A stretch of DNA of 64,000 bases from Pseudomonas fluorescens (lineage in GTDB: Bacteria > Pseudomonadota > Gammaproteobacteria > Pseudomonadales > Pseudomonadaceae). Where the stretch lies: the NCBI RefSeq assembly GCF_001623525.1, contig NZ_CP015225.1:2108001-2172000 (forward strand), in the 5' to 3' direction. The position numbers were made by a program, and so were the translations under genes. Below, piece after piece: positions 53,841 to 64,000 of this stretch. Below the pieces are notes generated by a model. That model was not told the DNA's origin. It made no database searches and saw only the letters and a program-made list of their open reading frames with translations. Within the stretch, counting starts at the first letter, position 1. Every line of letters begins with the position of its first letter.

Positions 53841-54878
53841 TCAAGGAAGGCTCACCGTGCGAAAGCCAATATGGTTAGTTCCCATGGTTCGATCCTGAGC
53901 ATGTCGCGCACTCGGACGGTAGCGTTTGCAGTACGAGGGTGAACAAAGAAAGGATCCCCCTTTGATTGTACCCAGCAGAAGCGTTCGCGCTTGGACGCTG
54001 AGTGAATCCTCAAGATCAATTTCTGGATGAGGCTCTTCCTCGATGGAGTGATAAGGCGTCCAGTCATCCATTACCCACTCCCAAACATTACCCACCATAT
54101 CAAAAAGATGGTAGGCATTCTGAGGAAAACAGCCAACAGGCGCTGTCGCGATGAAACCATCAGTGGCGGTATTCAAAAAGGGAAATACGCCGGTCCAGGT
54201 ATTCGTCATCTCCTTCCCGCCCAGATGAAGACTCTTGCCCCAGGGGTAGGTTGTACTGCTCGCACCTTTAGCCGCGTACTCAAATTGAGCTTCGGTCGGT
54301 AATGCACGGTTCATCCACTTCGCGTAAGCCTGAGCATCTTCAAAGGCTATTTGTACGACGGGATGATTATCCATATTGTCGATGGAGCTGCCTGGACCGC
54401 TAGGGTGTTGCCAATCCGCTCCTTCTATAAAGTGCCACCACTGAAGGTTGATGACCTGCAGATCGCGAGGGGATTCGAACACTGTTGATCCAGGACGGTA
54501 CATCTGATCGGGCAAACCGGGAAATACTTTAGGGTCTAACCCCCGCTCAGCCAGTGTCTTGTATCCCGTCGCCTCAACGAACGCTCGGAATTGCGCATTC
54601 GTCACTTCATGCCGATCAATCCAAAACCCATCCACCGCAACTTTCCGCTCTTGCGCTTCTTCGGGATAGTGCGTATTGGAACCCATAGTAAAGGTGCCCC
54701 CCGGCACCCATACCTGCTCTATAGGTACATCCTTGGGCGGTAAGCCTGAATATTGCTTGCAAGATGATGCGTCACCCAAAGATGAATAAACAGGTTCGGC
54801 ACTGACATCATCAATGGTCACCATCACGCTCAATAATGCCCCGGCTATCAGAGCACGCCTGTAGTCATTCATTTTCAT
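53841..54878 (-). CDS. Periplasmic formylglycine-generating enzyme (sulfatase-modifying factor)
   Basis: A 345-residue SUMF1-family protein with a signal peptide (about 1-27). The fold begins QVWVPGGTFTMGSNTHYPEE, with HEVTNAQFRAFVEATGY, LPTEAQFEYAAKGA and GNVWEWVMDDW. The C-terminal GGSFLCSPSYCKRYRPSARH supplies the two active-site cysteines of copper-dependent FGEs. FGE oxidises the sulfatase active-site cysteine to formylglycine. The sulfatase gene lies 41 bases upstream and is also exported, so activation would take place in the periplasm. Confidence 0.93.
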   Translation of the reverse strand: MKMNDYRRALIAGALLSVMVTIDDVSAEPVYSSLGDASSCKQYSGLPPKDVPIEQVWVPGGTFTMGSNTHYPEEAQERKVAVDGFWIDRHEVTNAQFRAFVEATGYKTLAERGLDPKVFPGLPDQMYRPGSTVFESPRDLQVINLQWWHFIEGADWQHPSGPGSSIDNMDNHPVVQIAFEDAQAYAKWMNRALPTEAQFEYAAKGASSTTYPWGKSLHLGGKEMTNTWTGVFPFLNTATDGFIATAPVGCFPQNAYHLFDMVGNVWEWVMDDWTPYHSIEEEPHPEIDLEDSLSVQARTLLLGTIKGGSFLCSPSYCKRYRPSARHAQDRTMGTNHIGFRTVSLP

Positions 54879-54919
54879 AACTCATCAATGGGGCATCTTC
54901 ACGTGGGAGGCCCTCTGTA

Positions 54920-56599
54920 TCAATAGTCACGACGTGGGTAGGTTGTATCACGCCCCGTACTGATGACATTGTTCTGCCGCACATACTGCGCCCACTCAGT
55001 CAGCAGCTCATTCAACTTGTCTGGGTGCTGACTGGAAAGATCATGCAACTCACCGCGGTCGGTCGCCAGGTCGTACAGCGCCCAAGTACCCTTGCCATCA
55101 TCAAAGGAGTAAACGATTTTCCAGTTGCCCTTGCGGATAGCATTACGCCCCATCAATTCAATGCCGACGGTATAGGTGGAATCATGCACTGCGTGGCTTT
55201 TACCTTGGAGCATGGATAAAGCACTCGCCCCCTTCATCGGCTCAACGGTTTTGCCTTGGTATTGCGTACCGGGATGTTTGATACCTGCCACATCAAGTAT
55301 CGTTGGCATGATGTCCATGGCAGTCACCACGGCGTCGGTGCGTTGAGGGTTGTCATTGAATGGAAGACGCATGAACGATGCAGAACGAACCCCCCCTTCA
55401 TTGGTATAGGCCTTGAACATTCTGAATGGTTGGGCGCTGACTTGCCCCCAGGCGGGTCCCTCATAAGCGAAAGAGTTTGGACGTCCAATATTGTTTAACG
55501 AGACGTCAAAGTGTTTGGGGATCCATTGATCATTTTCAACATCCTTGCTCCAATCATTACCTTCTGGTCCATTATCGGACAAGAACACGATCAAGGTGTT
55601 GTCATAAAGCCCTTTGTCCTTGAGGTGATTGATAAGTCTGCCGATCTCATGGTCAAAAGCATCGACCATTGCTGCGTAGGCTTCCATTGTCCGTGCCGAG
55701 TATTCTTTCTCTTCGACACTGAGTGCAGACCATGGCTTTACCCCCTTGGGCATCGGAACTGGTGTAGCTTTAGCGTCGACCAGGCCAAGAGATTTGAGCT
55801 TTTCGATTCTGCGTGCCGCGGTCACTTCGTAACCTTGGTCATAACGTCCCCGATATTTCTGCAGATAGGCGTCGGGAGCCTGGGAAGGTAAATGCGCGGC
55901 GGTGTAGGCGGCATAGGCAAAGAAGGGCTTTTTTTCTCCCAGGCCAGCATCGACGTACTCAATCAACTTGTTCGTAAAGTTGGTCGATGAGTAAAAATCC
56001 GCTGGCAACTCTACCTTGATGTCATTCTCCCTGTAGACGGGTTCCGGGGCGTCTGACGCTATTTGCATAGGTGCCGTTTGCTTAAAATGAGCGGCCCCAC
56101 CACCCATAAGGACATATGACTTATCGAACCCACGCTGCTGTGGACGCAGTCCATCAGCGCCACCCAAGTGCCATTTTCCGACCATGAAGGTCTGGTAACC
56201 AGCATCCTTCATCAACTCTGGCAGGGCCGCTACGCGCTGGTTTAGATAACCCTCGTAGCCAGGCTTGCCCATCTGCTCAGGTGTGAGGTGAGGCGTCATC
56301 ATTTCCGCCATATTACCGACACCTGCAAGATGATTGTCGGTCCCAGACATCAACATGGAGCGGGTCGGCGAACAGGTGGGGGCAACGTAAAGCGATTGAA
56401 GCAAGGTACTGTGCTTACTCAGTTCATCCAGATTCGGGGTGTCAATTTCCCCGCCAAATGCTCCTAGATCTGAATACCCCAAGTCATCGGCAACAATTAA
56501 CAAAATGTTGGGCTTCGCTGAGGCTGCGAAGGCCGGGGGGGCAAGACAGGCCACGACGAGCAAGGCACTAGAGGCGAGCCAGTTCAAGTTTTTTTTCAT
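54920..56599 (-). CDS. Periplasmic arylsulfatase
   Basis: A 559-residue type I sulfatase with a signal peptide (MKKNLNWLASSALLVVACLA..., cleaved near 26). Calcium ligands Asp38-Asp39 (LLIVADDLGYSDLG) and the signature Cys76-Ser-Pro-Thr-Arg (APTCSPTRSMLMSG) are present; Cys76 must become formylglycine. VGKWHLGG and FLSDNGPEGNDW add the remaining metal and sulfate-binding residues. It hydrolyses sulfate esters, releasing sulfate for assimilation. It lies between a porin gene and the FGE gene on the same strand, an uptake-cleave-activate set. Confidence 0.95.
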   Translation of the reverse strand: MKKNLNWLASSALLVVACLAPPAFAASAKPNILLIVADDLGYSDLGAFGGEIDTPNLDELSKHSTLLQSLYVAPTCSPTRSMLMSGTDNHLAGVGNMAEMMTPHLTPEQMGKPGYEGYLNQRVAALPELMKDAGYQTFMVGKWHLGGADGLRPQQRGFDKSYVLMGGGAAHFKQTAPMQIASDAPEPVYRENDIKVELPADFYSSTNFTNKLIEYVDAGLGEKKPFFAYAAYTAAHLPSQAPDAYLQKYRGRYDQGYEVTAARRIEKLKSLGLVDAKATPVPMPKGVKPWSALSVEEKEYSARTMEAYAAMVDAFDHEIGRLINHLKDKGLYDNTLIVFLSDNGPEGNDWSKDVENDQWIPKHFDVSLNNIGRPNSFAYEGPAWGQVSAQPFRMFKAYTNEGGVRSASFMRLPFNDNPQRTDAVVTAMDIMPTILDVAGIKHPGTQYQGKTVEPMKGASALSMLQGKSHAVHDSTYTVGIELMGRNAIRKGNWKIVYSFDDGKGTWALYDLATDRGELHDLSSQHPDKLNELLTEWAQYVRQNNVISTGRDTTYPRRDY

Positions 56600-56625
56600 T
56601 TCTTCAGAACCTTTTCTGTCATTTT

Positions 56626-58020
56626 TTAGAAGTGAAAAGCCACGACTAACTGGCTGTAGACGTTAAGATTATCGTTCCCCAGTTGGGAGCCGCCTTGTTC
56701 TGCACTTTTCTTAGGTTTATAGAGCCCCACCAGGGGACTGATAACCCAGTTCTCTCCCACCGACCAATCCAGGTAGGCATCCACTTCACTGGCGTCCAGG
56801 TCGCCTTGTCTTTTGTCCAGACTTCTAAACGAGTAAGCCAATGCGCCCAAGGTCAGATTGGCGGTCGGATGCAATTGGAGTTCCGCCATATGAATGCCAG
56901 CATTTCGCTGAAATGGCCCTGAGTAGTTAGAGGCGACTTCGCCTTGAAACCAAGTGCCGTAACCACGACTGTAACCACTGAAGAGGGGGTCGTAGTCTTC
57001 GGAGTAACGACTGTAGCGATAGCCCAAGCGAGGCGTCCATGGTAACTGGGAGAAGGTCCACGCCCCTTCCGCGTACCAGGCATGTTCCTGCCCCTGTGAC
57101 TTGTCCTCATGGGCATATTCGAACGATAAAAACAGGTCTTTGATACCGAAGTCACCTTGCCCACGAAGGCTGACAACTTCAAGACCGTCTCTCTGGGCGC
57201 TGAAACTGTTCGCCAAGCTTTCGTCAACCCCCAAACCTTTTATGTAAGTGAGGCCGAACGTAGCATGCTCATCTCCCCTTTCCAGTACAGCAATCCCGAG
57301 TTCTGGTTTGGCTTTGATCTCATTATCCGATTTCAGCCAAATCAAATCGCCACGCCATAGATCCTGCGCCCCAAGGTGCAGCTTCACCGTATTATGAAAA
57401 GCATTGCGCGGGGTGAGGTAATAGGCGCCACCTCTATCCAATTGACCGTCGGCAATATTGTTGCCGACACTTAAGCCATCCCCGTTGATGATGAATCCAT
57501 CACCTATCTGAATTTTCTGGCTGCCCACAGATAGATCGACAAAATCTTTTCCCCAGTCATGCATCAGATTACCCGAGCGCCAGCCGATATAAGCCCGATC
57601 GATTGATGCCCGTCGCTCGGAGCCGTCCGTGTATCCCGCAGCATCGCCACCATCCCAGGTACCGCTAGCCACCCAAGTGGTTTCTCCGTAGAGCGAACTG
57701 TCATATAACCCAGGTAATAGCGTCTGGCCTTTAAACCCAGCCCTGAGTACCCCTTCTTGCCAACCGGCGGCACCAGACTTGATAGGACCGCCCTGATTAT
57801 AGGATTCACTGCTGTGAAACGCCCCATAGATCGCCTGTACCGTGAAGTCAAGCTTCGTGTTGTCGTCTTTATAAATCGTTGCAGCCGAAGCACTGTGATC
57901 CACTACAGCCAACGCTAATCCGAGGAAAATATTAACAGCGCCGAACTGAACCTTGAAGGAGCGAACCTTCTGTTCATCCGGCTTCTTGTAAGTCAAGGTG
58001 ATCCGGCTTTTCGAAGACAT
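56626..58020 (-). CDS. Outer-membrane porin-like beta-barrel linked to arylsulfatase
   Basis: A 464-residue protein with a long N-terminal region (MSSKSRITLTYKKPDEQKVR) and a hydrophobic export segment ending VDHSASA, then repeated amphipathic strands rich in aromatic residues. It ends LVVAFHF, the C-terminal phenylalanine pattern required for barrel assembly. LDRGGAYYLTPRNAFHNTVK and LGALAYSFRSLDKRQGDLDA recall alginate-export/OprD-like barrels. It precedes the sulfatase gene by 26 bases and is likely the outer-membrane entry for sulfate esters. The ligand is inferred from context. Confidence 0.85.
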   Translation of the reverse strand: MSSKSRITLTYKKPDEQKVRSFKVQFGAVNIFLGLALAVVDHSASAATIYKDDNTKLDFTVQAIYGAFHSSESYNQGGPIKSGAAGWQEGVLRAGFKGQTLLPGLYDSSLYGETTWVASGTWDGGDAAGYTDGSERRASIDRAYIGWRSGNLMHDWGKDFVDLSVGSQKIQIGDGFIINGDGLSVGNNIADGQLDRGGAYYLTPRNAFHNTVKLHLGAQDLWRGDLIWLKSDNEIKAKPELGIAVLERGDEHATFGLTYIKGLGVDESLANSFSAQRDGLEVVSLRGQGDFGIKDLFLSFEYAHEDKSQGQEHAWYAEGAWTFSQLPWTPRLGYRYSRYSEDYDPLFSGYSRGYGTWFQGEVASNYSGPFQRNAGIHMAELQLHPTANLTLGALAYSFRSLDKRQGDLDASEVDAYLDWSVGENWVISPLVGLYKPKKSAEQGGSQLGNDNLNVYSQLVVAFHF

Positions 58021-58499: not shown

Positions 58500-59717
58500 C
58501 TACCGATGTGCGATACGCACCAATCCCTGGTCATGCAACGCGCCGAATTCGCTACTGCTCAACCCCAGCACGTCCATCAACACCGCCTCGGTATCAGCCC
58601 CCAATTGCGGTGCCGGCTGCGGCGTGCGGTAGTGGCCGTTGAAACGCAGGGGCATGCCGGGGGTGAGTATTTGGCCGATACCGGGCTGCTCCAGCAATTT
58701 GAACAAGGGGTTTTGCTCGGAGCAGGAAGGGTCTTCTTCAAGCAGGGTGCTGATGCTCTGATAGTGGCTCCAGCACACGCCGCTGTCTTCAAAGAGGGCG
58801 GTTATCTCTTCCAGGGTGCGCTCCGCCACCCAGGGGCTGACCAATGAGGCCAAGGCCTCACGGGCGTGGAAACGCTCACCTTCGCGATTTAGATCGACCT
58901 GTAGGTGTCGACCCAAGGCCTCCACCTGTTCGGTGATAGCTGTGACCTCGCAGAGGCTGCGCCACTGTTTGAGGGTCAGACCAACCACCATAATGCGCTG
59001 CCCGTCACGGGTCACGAAGTCGCGGCCAAAGGCGCCGAACAAGTCATTGCCGTGGCGTTGCCGTTGTACGCCGCGCTGGGCTTCGGCAAGAAAGCCCAAA
59101 TGCCCCATCACTGCCAACGCCACATCTTCCAGTGCCAGCTTCACCTGCTGACCAATGCCCTGCCGGCTGCGCTGACGCTCAGCGGCAAGTAACCCAACGG
59201 CCGCCATTTGCCCAGTGATCAGATCCCAGGCTGGCAGCACATGGTTGACCGCGCCATCGACGTCCTGCGGGCCGGTGAGATAGGGCAAACCAATGCGCGG
59301 ATTAATCGTGTAATCAACCGCCGAGCCGCCATGGCGATCGCCCTGAATGGTCAACTGAATCAGGTCCGCACGCTGGGCACGCAGGGTGTCATAGTCTAAC
59401 CAGCCTCGGGGTGGAAAATTGGTCAGCAGCATGCCGGCGTCTAAGCCCGGCGCGGTGATCAGCGCCTGGGCCAGTTCACGGCCCTGGGGCTTGTTGATAT
59501 CAATGGCCACCGAACGTTTGCCTTTATTGAGCCCGGCCCAGAACAAGCTGGTGTTGTCGTCGGTGACCGGCCAGCGGCGATAGTCCAGGCCGCCGTCGAG
59601 ACCGTCGACGCGGATCACATCGGCCCCCATCTGCGCCAGGGTCATGCCACCTAGCGGAGCGGCGACAAAGGCCGATACCTCAATTACGCGCATGCCCTTG
59701 AGAATTGCCTCGCTCAT
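58500..59717 (-). CDS. CaiB/BaiF CoA-transferase family, 2-methylfumaryl-CoA isomerase (Mct)-like
   Basis: A 405-residue class III CoA-transferase-fold protein. MRVIEVSAFVAAPLGGMTLA and GADVIRVDGLDGGLDYRRWP are the N-terminal family features. Asp165 in NHVLPAWDLITGQMAAVGLL sits at the nucleophile position. The stretches VDYTINPRIGLPYLTGPQDV and RHGNDLFGAFGRDFVTRDGQ resemble, from memory, mesaconyl-CoA C1-C4 transferases (intramolecular CoA transfer) more than carnitine or formyl-CoA enzymes. Its start overlaps the upstream stop by one base (TGATG), and it ends a five-gene operon whose other members fit the same pathway. Confidence 0.8.
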   Translation of the reverse strand: MSEAILKGMRVIEVSAFVAAPLGGMTLAQMGADVIRVDGLDGGLDYRRWPVTDDNTSLFWAGLNKGKRSVAIDINKPQGRELAQALITAPGLDAGMLLTNFPPRGWLDYDTLRAQRADLIQLTIQGDRHGGSAVDYTINPRIGLPYLTGPQDVDGAVNHVLPAWDLITGQMAAVGLLAAERQRSRQGIGQQVKLALEDVALAVMGHLGFLAEAQRGVQRQRHGNDLFGAFGRDFVTRDGQRIMVVGLTLKQWRSLCEVTAITEQVEALGRHLQVDLNREGERFHAREALASLVSPWVAERTLEEITALFEDSGVCWSHYQSISTLLEEDPSCSEQNPLFKLLEQPGIGQILTPGMPLRFNGHYRTPQPAPQLGADTEAVLMDVLGLSSSEFGALHDQGLVRIAHR

Positions 59718-61387
59718 CAGGCGACCTCGGCTTTCAGTGCGGCTTCCAGCAGGCTGCGGCCAATGACTTTCAACGCCAGGGTTTCTTCGGCGCCCTCAAA
59801 AATTGACAGCACCCGTGCGTCAACAAAGTAGCGGCTCACCGCCACTTCCTCGGCATAGCCCATGCCGCCGTGAATCTGCAGAGATTCGCGTGTCACCAAT
59901 TCTGCGCTACGGCAGGCGAACAATTTCACCAGGCTGGCCTCCATACGGCCCGCACCCTGAGCCAGCATGCAGCCCACCGAATAGGTGAGGTAGCGGCTAG
60001 CAACATAACGTGCAGCCATTTTTGCCAGCTTGGCGCCAGTCAGTGGATAGTCCAACAGCGGGGCACCGAATACCTTGCGCTCCGTAGCATATCGCAGCCC
60101 TGCCAACAGTGCCGCGCGCATCACACCGCTGGCCCGTCCGGCGGTCTGCATGCGCCCACCAGTCATTCCCGCCATGGTGTGGTAAAAGCCTTTGCCCAGG
60201 CCTTGGGCTTCGCCGATCACATTGCCGTCGGGAACAAAAAAATCCTCGAACGACAGATCAAACGAGTGCATGCCGCGGTAGCCGATGGTGGGGATTGCCC
60301 GCCCGGTAAGGCGCCCTCCCCCAGGCTGGCGGAAATCAAAGTCGTGGCCGTCGTAGCTGGGCTTCTCCGCCAGCAGCAAACTCAGGCCGCGATGACCCAG
60401 ACTTTTGTCCGGATTAGTACGGGTGACCACCATTAGCACCTCTGCCTTACCGGCAAAGGTGCACCAGGTTTTAGCTCCATTCAGGCGCCAACCGCCCTCA
60501 CAAGGTGTACCGCGCAAGGTCAGGCTCGCCACGTCGGAACCATAGTCAGGTTCGGTAATGGCAATCGCGCACAACGGCGCCCCCACCGCCAAGCGCGGCA
60601 GCCAGTGCTGCTTCTGCGCCTCGGTACCGCCGCTGAGCAACGCCCGTGAGAGAATTTCCGGGCGAGTGATCAGGCTACCCGCTGCGGCCAGGGACGCCTG
60701 CGACAGGGCTTCGGTGACCACAATCATGGTTAACGGATCTTCTTGATCGTCTGGCGCGCTGCCGCCGTACCGCTCAGGTATCGACAGCCCGAAGACGCCC
60801 ATATCGCGCAACGCCGCCAGCAAACTGTCGGGGATAATGAGGTCCTCGCGATGAATGTGTTCGGCAAGTGGTGCCACGGTATCGGCAGCGAAGCGGCGGA
60901 ACTGGTCCTGAATCATCGACAGTTCATCCCCCATCGCTACCTGACCGATCTGCTCCGGGCGTTCGACCATTAACCGCGCACTGTCATGCAGGGCAACACT
61001 GGATAAAACACTACGACGTAATGCACGCAGTTTCGGGTCGGCAGCGATGGCATGCAGGGCACCATCGGCCAGATCCAGCTCGACACAAATAGCCTCCAAA
61101 CGACCGTGCACCAAGGTGATGGCCTCCACAGCAAACACCAAAATCAGGCGTCGATCCACCGCGCTAGTACCGGCATCAATGGCCTGCAATGAACGCTCGG
61201 CGGCCAACAATTCGGCACTGGCCCAAGCGAGTTCGAAAGTCGGTACTTGCATCAGGTCCAGCAGGTCAGCATCCAGTTGCTGGCCCTTGGTGCAGCGTGA
61301 AGCCAAGGCACTGGTGGCCTGCTCCAGTACGCCGCGCAACTGTAACAGCAGGCCCAGCAAATCGTTGGTAGCGGTAATTGGCAGCAT
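59717..61387 (-). CDS. Long acyl-CoA dehydrogenase, methylsuccinyl-CoA dehydrogenase-like
   Basis: A 556-residue flavoprotein, about 170 residues longer at the N-terminus than ordinary acyl-CoA dehydrogenases; the helical extension (LLGLLLQLRGVLEQATSALA onward) matches the size of that in methylsuccinyl-CoA dehydrogenase. The core has FAD/CoA features: AITEPDYGSDVASLTLRGT, WRLNGAKTWCTFAGKA, LQIHGGMGYAEEVAVSRYFV and the catalytic glutamate in DARVLSIFEGAEE. ATG 61387 is chosen (GGAG 9 bases upstream) over 61405. It would introduce a double bond into a 2-methyl-branched succinyl-CoA. Specificity is inferred from length and neighbours. Confidence 0.82.
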   Translation of the reverse strand: MLPITATNDLLGLLLQLRGVLEQATSALASRCTKGQQLDADLLDLMQVPTFELAWASAELLAAERSLQAIDAGTSAVDRRLILVFAVEAITLVHGRLEAICVELDLADGALHAIAADPKLRALRRSVLSSVALHDSARLMVERPEQIGQVAMGDELSMIQDQFRRFAADTVAPLAEHIHREDLIIPDSLLAALRDMGVFGLSIPERYGGSAPDDQEDPLTMIVVTEALSQASLAAAGSLITRPEILSRALLSGGTEAQKQHWLPRLAVGAPLCAIAITEPDYGSDVASLTLRGTPCEGGWRLNGAKTWCTFAGKAEVLMVVTRTNPDKSLGHRGLSLLLAEKPSYDGHDFDFRQPGGGRLTGRAIPTIGYRGMHSFDLSFEDFFVPDGNVIGEAQGLGKGFYHTMAGMTGGRMQTAGRASGVMRAALLAGLRYATERKVFGAPLLDYPLTGAKLAKMAARYVASRYLTYSVGCMLAQGAGRMEASLVKLFACRSAELVTRESLQIHGGMGYAEEVAVSRYFVDARVLSIFEGAEETLALKVIGRSLLEAALKAEVA

Positions 61388-61404
61388 AGGTCGAACTCCA
61401 AACA

Positions 61405-62304
61405 TTATTTAGCTGGCAGTCGTTGGCAGTGAATGGCAGACATGTGGCGGGTCAGCAGCTCTCGGGCACGGGCGACGATCGGCGCATCGATCATCTTGCC
61501 GCGGAAGGCGAAGGCGCCTCGCCCCTCGGCTTCGGCACAGGCATACTCAGCCAGCAGAGCGACGGAGTATTCAACCTCGGCATCGCCAGGAGAAAACACC
61601 TCGTTAAGCACAGCCACTTGTTCAGGGTGAATGCAGAAGGCGCCGATCATTCCCAGCTGCCGCCCCAGTACGAGGGCCTGACGAAAACGTGGGATGTCAC
61701 TGAAATCGGCAATCGAGCCTGGAAAACCAAAGGGCAGAATTCCTGCGCGGCGGCAGGCAAAGGCCACTTGCTGGTTGGGCCACAGTAACGTTTCCGGTAC
61801 AGGTTCCATTCCCGCGGACACGGAAAAATCTTCCGGGCCCAGGCTCATGCCCATCAGCCGTGGCGAGGCCGTGGCAATTTCATCCAGTAAGGGCAACGCC
61901 GCTACGTCTTCGATCTGCGCGAGGATCAGCGTTTGTCCCGCGTCCATACCCCGCTCGGTTTCCAAACGGTCCAGTTGCAAGGCCACGTGGCGCACCACCT
62001 CGGCAGAGGCCACTTTGGGCAGCACCACGGCGCAAACGGCGGGGCTGACAATTGCCTGCAAATCCAACAGCCCGCCGCTATCGAGCGTATTGATACGCAC
62101 CAATACATCCAGGCCACGGTTGGAGATGTTCTGTGCGGCGCTGCTGGCAGCGTCGCGAGCTTGTGTCTTTTGCCCGGGAGCAACGCTGTCTTCAAGGTCT
62201 AGGATGCAGGCATCAGCGTTTCGTTCATGGGCTTTTTCAGTGAACTTGCCGATATGTGCGGGAACAAACAGCAGCGAGCGCCACATTGGGAATGCACGAT
62301 TCAT
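61405..62304 (-). CDS. HpcH/HpaI (CitE)-family CoA lyase, citramalyl-/malyl-CoA lyase-like
   Basis: A 299-residue CitE-type TIM barrel. Family marks: WRSLLFVPAHIGKFTEKAHE, ACILDLEDSVAPGQK, the arginine in VLVRINT, ILAQIEDVAAL with the metal glutamate, and SLGPEDFSVSAGM with the metal aspartate region. GAFCIHPEQVAVLNEVFSP closes the domain. These enzymes cleave malyl-, methylmalyl- or citramalyl-CoA to acetyl-CoA (or propionyl-CoA) plus an oxoacid. The start overlaps the MaoC stop (ATGA). In this operon citramalyl-CoA, giving pyruvate and acetyl-CoA, is the most economical substrate. Confidence 0.85.
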   Translation of the reverse strand: MNRAFPMWRSLLFVPAHIGKFTEKAHERNADACILDLEDSVAPGQKTQARDAASSAAQNISNRGLDVLVRINTLDSGGLLDLQAIVSPAVCAVVLPKVASAEVVRHVALQLDRLETERGMDAGQTLILAQIEDVAALPLLDEIATASPRLMGMSLGPEDFSVSAGMEPVPETLLWPNQQVAFACRRAGILPFGFPGSIADFSDIPRFRQALVLGRQLGMIGAFCIHPEQVAVLNEVFSPGDAEVEYSVALLAEYACAEAEGRGAFAFRGKMIDAPIVARARELLTRHMSAIHCQRLPAK

Positions 62305-63158
62305 TGCGGCACCTCCACGTCGGCTGTGGCGATCATGGTGACAAAGCCATCCTGGTTCTGCGTCCACAGATCAACACGATCGCCACTGCGTTTGCTGCAC
62401 AGCAATAAGTGGTCAGTGTCGAACACCGGGCGCACAGCACGAAAACCAAAACTGTTTACCCGTACCTCGGGCATTTGTATCGTCACCTGCTCGGCCAGTA
62501 AGGTCGCCAACAATGGGCCATGCACCACCAGCGCCGGATAATGCTCCTGCCGCGTGGCGTAGTCGCGATCGTAGTGAATGCGGTGACCGTTGAAGGTCAG
62601 CGCGCTGTAGCGAAAGAGCAGTACCGGGTCAGGTTGAAATGGCTGCTTAACATCCGCTTCATCTGGCGCGGGCTCGCCGGGCAGCGAGGGGCTGGGGCCG
62701 TTGGCCATTTCCCGGTAGACCAAGTGTTGTTTCTCCACGAGACAGCGTCGTCCCTGCTGGCTGATCTGATGTTCCAGGCTGACAAACACCAGGGCCCCGG
62801 TTTTTCCCTCCTTCAGCTCAACAGAAGTGACCACCGAGCGCTGTTCGGCCAGTTCGCCGATGCGCAATGGCCGCTCACACATGAACTCACCCGACGCCCA
62901 CATACGTCGAGGCAAGGGCACCGGTGGCAGGAAGCCTCCGGTTCTGCCATGGCCGTCAGCCCCCAGGTTGGTACGCTCGGCGCAGTCATTGAAGTACAGC
63001 CATTGCCAGGTAGGTGGCAGCGTCTCGCCTTGCATAGGCACCTGTTCGCGATCCAGCGTAGCGCTCAGCGCCTGGACGGCGAACGGCGCCAACAGTTCTT
63101 CACGCACACGCTCGCGGCCTACCCAGCCACGCAAGTAGTCGATATCAATTTCAGTCAT
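62301..63158 (-). CDS. MaoC-type hydratase (FAS1-like double hotdog), mesaconyl-C4-CoA hydratase-like
   Basis: A 285-residue double-hotdog hydratase. The N-terminal hotdog includes PPTWQWLYFNDCAERTNLGA and GFLPPVPLPRRMWASGEF. The C-terminal hotdog has RYSALTFNGHRIHYDRDYAT and YPALVVHGPLLATLLAEQV, with the catalytic Asp/His region of MaoC hydratases. The same architecture occurs in mesaconyl-C4-CoA and itaconyl-CoA hydratases. ATG 63158 is chosen as it overlaps the upstream stop by 8 bases; the open frame reaches 63254. It would hydrate mesaconyl-C4-CoA to citramalyl-CoA for the downstream lyase. Confidence 0.83.
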   Translation of the reverse strand: MTEIDIDYLRGWVGRERVREELLAPFAVQALSATLDREQVPMQGETLPPTWQWLYFNDCAERTNLGADGHGRTGGFLPPVPLPRRMWASGEFMCERPLRIGELAEQRSVVTSVELKEGKTGALVFVSLEHQISQQGRRCLVEKQHLVYREMANGPSPSLPGEPAPDEADVKQPFQPDPVLLFRYSALTFNGHRIHYDRDYATRQEHYPALVVHGPLLATLLAEQVTIQMPEVRVNSFGFRAVRPVFDTDHLLLCSKRSGDRVDLWTQNQDGFVTMIATADVEVPQ

Positions 63159-64000
63159 CGCGCGCTGTCTCTGCGGTGAGTAACGAGAGCCCCAATGCCG
63201 CGCGCCGGGCCAACCAGGGGCTGGGGCGGTAACGCGGGTCACCGCTGAGCTCATGCATGCGGGTAAGAATGTCCATCACCCGCTTGCCACCAATGGCATC
63301 GCCAAGGCTTAGCGGTCCTTGCGGGTAACCCAGACCAAGGCGCACCGCATCTTCGATGTCAGCGACACTGGCGATACCCCGTTGAACAATATCGGCAGCG
63401 ATATTGACGATAGTCGCCAACACTCGCTGGACAACGAACCCGCAGCTGTCGTTGATCACCGTCACTGGTGTGTCTTGTGCGGCCAGCATCGCCCAGGCGG
63501 CATCGCGCACCTCTGGACGGGTGACGCTGCTGAGCATCAGGGTACGGTGGTTCTCCAGGCCAGGCAGCGGGTCCACGGCCACCGTTCGGGTGGGGTCGAG
63601 ACCGTGCACGGCGCAGTAACGCGAAACGTCATCGCCCCAGAACTGCACCAGCGATATATCCGCCTCATCAGGTAGATGGTGCAGCATCATGCCGACCTCC
63701 AACACCAGACCTTGCAGGCGTTCGTAGTCGTCGGCAGCCGGGTCCACCCAGACCAACAACTCGTGGTTGAGCGCAGGAACAGGCCGAGCAGGTGCCACCT
63801 GTTTTTTGAGGTTGTCGCAGTAGCGATACCAGCCTTCACCCGTCTTGCGTCCATAGAGGCCAGCACCCAGGCGCGGCGCGACCAGAGGCGATGGGCGAAA
63901 ACGCGGCTCTTGGTAAAACTGCTGGTAGATGGACTCCATCACCTTGCCGGACACATCCAGCCCGGTAAGGTCGAGCAGCTCAAATGGGCCCATGCGAAAG
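63151..64000 (-). CDS. 3-Hydroxyacyl-CoA dehydrogenase, C-terminal part (runs off window)
   Basis: 283 codons remain; the NAD-binding N-terminus lies beyond base 64000. The visible part begins at the hinge FRMGPFELLDLTGLDVSGKV, typical of the C-terminal substrate-binding domain, and contains a second such domain (DSCGFVVQRVLATIVNIAAD, then RLGLGYPQGPLSLGDAIGG), so it is a two-repeat, PaaH/FadB-like form. It oxidises an L-3-hydroxyacyl-CoA with NAD. It is the first visible gene of the CoA-ester operon and overlaps the MaoC start. Its place in the proposed pathway is not obvious; it may process a precursor. Confidence 0.85.
   Translation of the reverse strand, partial: FRMGPFELLDLTGLDVSGKVMESIYQQFYQEPRFRPSPLVAPRLGAGLYGRKTGEGWYRYCDNLKKQVAPARPVPALNHELLVWVDPAADDYERLQGLVLEVGMMLHHLPDEADISLVQFWGDDVSRYCAVHGLDPTRTVAVDPLPGLENHRTLMLSSVTRPEVRDAAWAMLAAQDTPVTVINDSCGFVVQRVLATIVNIAADIVQRGIASVADIEDAVRLGLGYPQGPLSLGDAIGGKRVMDILTRMHELSGDPRYRPSPWLARRAALGLSLLTAETARDD

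Follow-up and report, generated by a model that had tools for sequence, protein, structure and literature searches.

Four tightly packed minus-strand genes at the end of the window, by which we mean the whole analysed stretch of 64,000 nucleotides (2108001-2172000 of the 6.92 Mb single-contig genome of Pseudomonas fluorescens, GCF_001623525.1), likely conclude a larger gene set for the degradation of a methyl-substituted ring compound, as a module in which methylsuccinyl-CoA would be converted to acetyl-CoA and pyruvate. Their products are a methylsuccinyl-CoA dehydrogenase (Mcd), a family III CoA transferase resembling 2-methylfumaryl-CoA isomerase (Mct), a MaoC-type hydratase and a CitE-type lyase. 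A dehydrogenase type of the ethylmalonyl-CoA pathway and a transferase type of the 3-hydroxypropionate bicycle are joined here in a catabolic setting. The gene set predicts an intracellular source of methylsuccinyl-CoA, namely ring degradation, together with an exit for its C1 ester, and suggests how the lower pathway for methyl-substituted aromatics, MCPA-type herbicides included, could be completed.

Open reading frame (ORF) calls placed genes for a CaiB/BaiF protein, an acyl-CoA dehydrogenase, a CitE-type and a MaoC-type protein and a 3-hydroxyacyl-CoA dehydrogenase on the minus strand between 58500 and 64000. Earlier starts were possible for some ORFs, and the starts fitting the homologs were adopted. 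The gene of the Mct-like transferase (58500..59717, 405 amino acids), predicted to convert mesaconyl-C1-CoA to mesaconyl-C4-CoA, overlaps by 1 nt with the Mcd gene (59717..61387, 556 amino acids), which was assigned by its match to PDB entry 8ciw and by its tree clade. The Mcd frame extends further upstream, as far as another ATG at 61405 (59717-61405, 562 amino acids), and the adopted ATG at 61387 is the start point of 8ciw. Separated by a gap of 17 nt follows the CitE/HpcH-type lyase, a predicted citramalyl-CoA lyase (61405..62304, 299 amino acids from the ATG at 62304, with the frame 61405-62367 open as far as 62367). It overlaps by 4 nt with the MaoC/FAS1-type hydratase, predicted to act on mesaconyl-C4-CoA (62301..63158, 285 amino acids from the ATG at 63158, with the frame 62301-63254 open as far as 63254), and the hydratase gene in turn overlaps by 8 nt with the gene of a PaaH-like 3-hydroxyacyl-CoA dehydrogenase (63151..64000), which leaves the window. 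The same four-gene order was also found in other genera. An earlier note on this DNA, made from the letters alone, had claimed four overlapping genes of exactly these enzyme types, the dehydrogenase having 556 residues, and the ORFs together with family matches far beyond chance bear this out.

The dehydrogenase was the most clearly assigned of the four proteins. Using phmmer against the PDB, its top match was 8ciw (1143 bits, residues 7-560 of the 562-residue ORF, starting from Met1 of 8ciw), followed by 6es9 with 285 bits. 8ciw was deposited under the name (2S)-methylsuccinyl-CoA dehydrogenase. As 6 of 6 peptides picked at differences between 8ciw and the window protein were found in the Mcd of P. 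migulae NBRC 103157, 8ciw is the P. migulae sequence; the Mcd proteins of the two strains are 95% identical, and P. migulae NBRC 103157 (locus L010) also has the gene order of the window. The name of the molecule is silent on an operon, and no paper describing 8ciw was found in the literature searched, here and below mostly without subscription journals, so that one may exist. The preference of Mcd for the (2S)-C1 ester is predicted solely from this deposited name. The Pfam acyl-CoA dehydrogenase core starts at residue 160 of the 562-residue ORF, leaving the long N-terminal extension that had been taken as the mark of Mcd. In a tree of 74 rows the window protein was found in a clade of 32 rows (support 100/100), sister to a clade of 27 rows (100/100), and both were joined as 59 Mcd rows with 99/98; the protein hence groups with Mcd and not with ordinary acyl-CoA dehydrogenases. 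Many of the 15 non-Mcd rows lie on long branches.

Both Mcd clades were compared for crotonyl-CoA carboxylase/reductase (Ccr), an enzyme of the ethylmalonyl-CoA pathway, in 33 genomes. Ccr was present in 24 of the 27 sister-clade genomes (exceptions G073, G534 and G552) and in none of the 5 genomes on the side of the window Mcd (G000, G211, G366, G668, G665). One further genome, G173, was also without Ccr (0/1), and its protein falls outside both Mcd clades. In the genome of the window the best match to the Ccr model TIGR01751 reached 77.6 bits against a cut-off of 378.55, and no Ccr was found at 1e-80. Since no Ccr exceeded the cut-off, the ethylmalonyl-CoA pathway was ruled out as the context of the module. 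The dehydrogenase was matched in 4 of 298 genomes of a genus sample (G000 and G211 at 95-100%, G073 and G173 at 41% identity) and, at 1e-70, in 67 of 398 genomes of a phylum sample, 4 of them at 54-100% identity with the window among them and the others at 46% or below; matches of the phylum sample entered the tree only where loci were available. Judged from these counts and from the distribution of Ccr, Mcd belongs to the accessory genes, occurs rarely in Pseudomonas and stands outside the ethylmalonyl-CoA pathway in this genome. G073, another Pseudomonas (L061, L092), and G534, a different proteobacterium (L089, L093), carry a more distant second Mcd-Mct pair with 41-48% identity, their Mcd belonging to the sister clade though both are without Ccr.

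The Mcd of the ethylmalonyl-CoA pathway is alike in its long N-terminal extension and its IFEGA motif, which is present in the window Mcd and whose Glu we take to be the usual catalytic base. Comparing the 32 rows of the window clade with 25 rows of the sister clade (L061 and L089 were dropped from the 27), 60 positions were fixed alike in both and 20 were fixed differently, two of the latter being one-residue insertions. At residues 374-375 (556-residue numbering) His-Ser was found in 32/32 window-clade rows and Lys-Glu in 25/25 sister-clade rows; we assume that these residues possibly lie close to positions mutated when Mcd was turned into an oxidase. Unlike in the ethylmalonyl-CoA pathway, the product of the window Mcd is predicted to leave via Mct and citramalyl-CoA and not via beta-methylmalyl-CoA.

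The transferase matched the model TIGR04253 (2-methylfumaryl-CoA isomerase) with 530 bits (E 3.5e-159), and its PDB matches were the 2-methylfumaryl-CoA isomerase 8apq and also 7xkg, with E about 1e-152 to 2e-152. On the same model, Chloroflexus and Roseiflexus rows scored 868-870 bits, rows from Zhongshania, Brevundimonas and SAR324 547-584 bits, proteins of the plasmids pSHV1 and pCADAB1 339-349 bits, and, among five further CaiB/BaiF proteins encoded in the same genome, the three scanned 85-97 bits. In a tree of 61 rows, a clade of 44 rows united the window protein with Chloroflexi Mct (100/100, on a long branch), apart from these three proteins of its own genome and from the CaiB paralogs adjoining Mct in Chloroflexi-type loci; the program warned of long branches among the 17 remaining rows. 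The window transferase is 55-58% identical to the 8 Chloroflexi-type rows, although its gene adjoins Mcd and not CaiB paralogs. The equivalents of Asn100 and Arg104 are kept in it, Asp165 in 44/44 clade rows and the Arg47 equivalent in 43/44, with one gap. As Asp165 is also found in 17/17 and Arg47 in 14/17 outgroup rows, neither residue is specific. Catalytic roles of Asp165 and Arg47 are described in PMC9196870. No tetra-glycine run was found in the inspected loop stretch of the window transferase, as in Chloroflexi Mct, while the same loop is tetra-glycine in formyl-CoA:oxalate transferase (PMC11659651). Because of its score below the TIGR04253 cut-off, we filed the transferase as Mct-like, a protein predicted to work like Mct. 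Among the best 120 of 8000 candidates each, some relatives already carry the database names 2-methylfumaryl-CoA isomerase and (2S)-methylsuccinyl-CoA dehydrogenase.

The hydratase matched just two PDB entries at E 1e-3, the itaconyl-CoA hydratase (Ich) 8khg and 8huc, which is named by domain, both with E about 1e-64, 7e-65 to 9e-65 for 8khg, and has a FRYSA-TFNGHRIHYD stretch in common with 8khg. Its sole Pfam match was FAS1_DH_region (28.5 bits, cut-off 22). In 5 of the 8 Chloroflexi-type loci it is 39-43% identical to an opposite-strand MaoC protein near Mct, presumably the place where the mesaconyl-C4-CoA hydratase Meh is expected. For the lyase, a match to HpcH/HpaI (PF03328, E 2.1e-33) was obtained, together with 168 bits on TIGR01588 citE, below its cut-off, and 150.6 bits on RipC/Ccl (NF038242, cut-off 375), the sole RipC match in the genome. 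The best PDB match was malyl-CoA lyase 4l9y (124 bits, E 6e-35); chains of citrate-lyase type and of acyl-CoA lyases matched too. The protein was the only match of the genome at E 1e-8. We assigned the lyase to its family only, and its predicted specificity for citramalyl-CoA is the weakest link of the pathway. Ich also acts as a mesaconyl-C4-CoA hydratase (PMC12290011).

Beyond the window the module continues into a run of 12 co-directional genes (L007), probably one operon, of which the four genes form the end. From far to near, the upstream part on the same strand comprises genes for an enoyl-CoA hydratase (ECH), an SDR protein, an alpha/beta hydrolase, an HMG-CoA-synthase-like (HMGS-like) protein, a thiolase, two further enoyl-CoA hydratases and the PaaH-like dehydrogenase, with a TetR gene next upstream of the run. 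The linked 3-hydroxyacyl-CoA dehydrogenase (HCDH), which the earlier note had pointed out, was confirmed as a member of this run and is complete in the genome (L007:8152-9669, 505 amino acids); it scored 628 bits on NF006124 (cut-off 508) and 385 bits on TIGR02279 PaaH (cut-off 669). The thiolase exceeded the cut-off of PRK06157 (682 versus 403 bits), and below their cut-offs remained the SDR, with BadH as best model (233 bits), and ECH3 on the PaaF model (266 bits). The HMGS-like protein has a weak OB-fold match in its C-terminal part. It and the thiolase each match chains of 6esq, which we take to be the archaeal thiolase/HMGCS complex with DUF35, and the HMGS-like protein also matches PhlA 5m3k. 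The two neighbours (L007:11221-13908) resemble a partly fused thiolase/HMGCS/DUF35 complex of the 6esq type or PhlA-PhlB with PhlC. The next ~27 kb upstream hold genes for an acyl-CoA ligase, aldehyde and acyl-CoA dehydrogenases, and a Rieske oxygenase with reductase, the oxygenase itself lying ~27 kb further upstream of the run. The Rieske beta gene gave no NCBIfam match but shares 61% identity with the beta subunit annotated in Variovorax SRS16. FadA-, FadB-, RND-, DUF1302- and DUF1329-like proteins in the same ~27 kb were named by eye.

Scanning contigs for Mct gave 40 loci, 8 of Chloroflexi type and 32 others, with flanks limited to 10 kb and several contigs being short. Six of the Chloroflexi-type loci have two CaiB paralogs before Mct, and L038 and L042, on cut contigs, have one. 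Mcd lies on the Mct strand in 29/32 of the other loci, within 150 nt of Mct in 28/32, and in 0/8 of the Chloroflexi-type loci. Same-strand neighbours in the 32 loci were HMGS-like (18), thiolase (19), ECH2 (18), ECH3 (19) and HCDH (19) genes; near Mct in the Chloroflexi-type loci, HMGS-like, thiolase, ECH or HCDH genes were found in 0/8. All four module genes are present in 7/32 loci, from Pseudomonas migulae, two Zhongshania, Haliea, Brevundimonas, Nevskia and Hydrocarboniphaga. In Brevundimonas (L018) the genes from Rieske to thiolase stand in one run with Mcd-Mct, MaoC and CitE included. The annotated run on plasmid 3 of Variovorax SRS16 consists of Rieske alpha, beta, ECH, SDR, hydrolase, HMGS-like, thiolase, two ECH, HCDH, FAD-oxidoreductase, Mcd, Mct and reductase genes; MaoC and CitE are not in it, and a TetR gene follows on the opposite strand. 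Rieske genes adjoin ECH1, SDR1 and hydrolase genes in four loci (L018, L026, L095, L099), of which L095 has Mcd and no Mct match. The presence of Rieske genes beside members of the gene set in relatives therefore ties the Rieske oxygenase to this set.

These data are consistent with the following route. A ring carrying a CoA-activated side chain and, para to it, a methyl group would be degraded by phenylacetate-type steps to 4-methyl-2,3-dehydroadipyl-CoA, which PaaF/PaaH-like enzymes would convert via the 3-hydroxy form to 4-methyl-3-oxoadipyl-CoA. Its thiolysis would yield acetyl-CoA and a methylsuccinyl-CoA esterified at C1, next to the methyl carbon. This C1 ester would be oxidized by Mcd to mesaconyl-C1-CoA, and the Mct-like protein would shift CoA intramolecularly from C1 to C4, a transfer required because a hydratase of the Ich/Meh type needs the C4 ester. 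Addition of water to mesaconyl-C4-CoA by the MaoC-type hydratase would give citramalyl-CoA, to be cleaved by the CitE-type lyase to acetyl-CoA and pyruvate. The earlier note had read the genes as this series from methylsuccinyl-CoA onward, which is supported at the family level, with the lyase being resolved to its family only. Neither grouping that the note had named as refuting its reading was observed, the dehydrogenase falling outside the ordinary acyl-CoA dehydrogenases and the transferase outside unrelated CaiB/BaiF families. The note had missed that these genes close a much larger run. This changes the physiology: the cell probably generates methylsuccinyl-CoA itself, from some larger compound, instead of importing methylsuccinate. 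ThnP of anaerobic naphthalene degradation offers a precedent. After ring cleavage and beta-oxidation have left CoA on the unsuitable carboxyl, it shifts CoA within the molecule to the other one; unlike the window protein, it is a family I transferase of an anaerobic ring pathway with a larger substrate (PMC11659651).

We are fully aware of several points that weigh against this reading. The transferase, with its 530 bits, stays below the equivalog cut-off of TIGR04253 (725). At the position of Arg314 it has Gly313, Gly being present in 32/44 clade rows, its own among them, and Arg in 8; in Mct of R. castenholzii this residue, from the partner subunit, moves when the C4 ester binds (PMC9196870). 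Compared to the same enzyme, Arg75 is changed to Asn and Glu133 to Ala. The 20 differently fixed Mcd positions indicate that substrate or ester position could differ, and the lyase matches CitE, RipC and malyl-CoA/beta-methylmalyl-CoA lyase (4l9y) alike. In the 32 non-Chloroflexi-type loci a linked MaoC gene was found in 17 and CitE in just 7. Many betaproteobacterial loci have an FAD-oxidoreductase gene before Mcd and no CitE match, so another lyase or another route must be expected there. Finally, 4-methyl-3-oxoadipyl-CoA as the source follows from carbon bookkeeping and is accordingly a proposal; for it and for the ring substrate nothing usable was found in the literature searched.

Three other explanations were weighed. 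It is improbable that the substrates of the module are free methylsuccinate, mesaconate or itaconate from outside, as with PA0878-0886 of P. aeruginosa, even though the outcome would be the same, a C5 dicarboxyl-CoA being converted to acetyl-CoA and pyruvate, and the hydratase is homologous to Ich (PMC12290011, PMC9875883). Using Pfam and NCBIfam, neither MmgE/PrpD nor a CoA transferase beyond the Mct-like protein was found among the 12 genes, TetR and SDR2, the rest of the genome not having been searched for MmgE/PrpD or Ict; the sole RipC match of the genome is the lyase of the module, far below the cut-off, and the module ends a gene run of ring-degradation type. On the grounds of the missing MmgE/PrpD and extra CoA transferase among the run genes and of the RipC score, identity with an itaconate cluster was rejected for this locus. 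We likewise give little credence to the idea that the CaiB protein does something else and that the route has no need of Mct. The best PDB match of the lyase, malyl-CoA lyase 4l9y, and the sister position of the window Mcd clade to Ccr-associated Mcd would fit such a route, yet Mct, superfluous on it, is the steadiest partner of Mcd, the hydratase matches just 8khg and 8huc in the PDB, and the genome has no Ccr. Very improbable, in our view, is that dehydrogenase and CaiB protein are mere homologs of Mcd and Mct whose substrate is some larger dicarboxyl-CoA from that ring pathway. The 20 differently fixed positions, the sub-cut-off TIGR04253 score and the loss of Arg314 speak for it; against it stand the methylsuccinyl-CoA name of the P. 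migulae ortholog 8ciw and the existence of Mcd-Mct pairs without ring genes on plasmid pAKD34 and, for example, in L029, L030 and L033, and with hydratase and lyase on pSHV1. Conversion of methylsuccinyl-CoA from a methyl-substituted ring thus remains the preferred reading.

In comparison to known systems, the module shares with the itaconate/methylsuccinate cluster of P. aeruginosa and C. necator the sequence from mesaconyl-C4-CoA via citramalyl-CoA to acetyl-CoA and pyruvate and an Ich-like hydratase (PMC12290011, PMC9875883, in which this C4 route is described). As the earlier note had correctly stated, those clusters differ in dehydrogenase and layout: they have their own (RS)-methylsuccinyl-C4-CoA dehydrogenase, Ict and MmgE/PrpD, whereas the window has a dehydrogenase of predicted C1 type and Mct. 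According to PMC12290011, C. necator has no further use for methylsuccinyl-C1-CoA, which is a dead end there. As a previously identified methylsuccinyl-CoA dehydrogenase, the same paper names only the enzyme of the ethylmalonyl-CoA pathway, and it describes the origin of methylsuccinate as unclear until recently. The module would be a way out for methylsuccinyl-C1-CoA. A C1 route for methylsuccinyl-CoA via Mct in a catabolic operon was not found in the literature searched. Further proteobacteria with genes of the bicycle are listed in PMC6593406.

A tblastn search with the transferase gave 979 plasmid records, 977 of them at less than 60% identity; 10 among 30 listed were examined, partly chosen by host name. 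On pSHV1 of S. herbicidovorans (L103:14992-19490), four consecutive genes next to a regulator encode an Mct-like protein, Mcd, MaoC and an annotated aldolase/citrate-lyase. The first three share 40-43% identity with their window counterparts, and for the lyase-type gene the locus comparison gave no match to the window lyase. On pCADAB1 of the MCPA degrader Sphingomonas ERG5 (L102, L131) Mct-like and Mcd genes are 41-43% identical to those of the window; the plasmid also bears, at other sites, tfd-type genes, pcaIJ and pcaF. pAKD34 (L100:18296-21206) carries Mcd-Mct between transposases, with an rdpA gene ~10 kb off. All four genes were found in Paraburkholderia D15, with maleylacetate reductase and intradiol dioxygenase genes within 20 kb, and the Mct-Mcd pair in Sphingomonas paeninsulae and Ancylobacter; in the remaining three plasmids Mcd was missing or not adjacent to Mct. 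The ERG5 pathway is described to 3-oxoadipate and succinyl-CoA, and in the accessible part of PMC3877037 the methyl group is not followed.

These Mcd-Mct cassettes possibly serve to degrade the methyl group of MCPA-type herbicides in a lower pathway; this is a lead and not a statistic. More tentatively, Mcd and Mct, with or without hydratase and lyase, might be a mobile cassette for aerobic degraders of methyl-bearing rings that rescues methylsuccinyl-C1-CoA and was recruited both by the widespread Rieske gene set with its PhlABC-like complex and on the phenoxy-herbicide plasmids pSHV1, pCADAB1 and pAKD34. Several observations speak against the herbicide link. On pCADAB1, Mct/Mcd lie ~25 kb from pcaF, past a Tn3-family transposase gene, and outside the composite transposon as we read the map. 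The transferases of pSHV1 and pCADAB1 reach only 339-349 bits on TIGR04253. By carbon bookkeeping, 5-chloro-3-methylcatechol would yield the C4 and not the C1 ester, and Mct would therefore need to precede Mcd there.

Two groups of neighbouring genes were kept apart from the module. In the window, at 53841-58020 on the same strand after it, lie genes for a sulfatase, accompanied by a dedicated formylglycine-generating enzyme of the FGE-sulfatase family, and for a porin-like protein, which had no Pfam match and was named by eye. These genes were left out of the module because no close counterpart was found near Mct of relatives, except for a weak 23% sulfatase match in L032. Outside the window, at L009:12190-19848, an aminoglycoside-kinase-like protein and small membrane proteins like NorE/cytochrome oxidase subunit 3 were recognized by eye.

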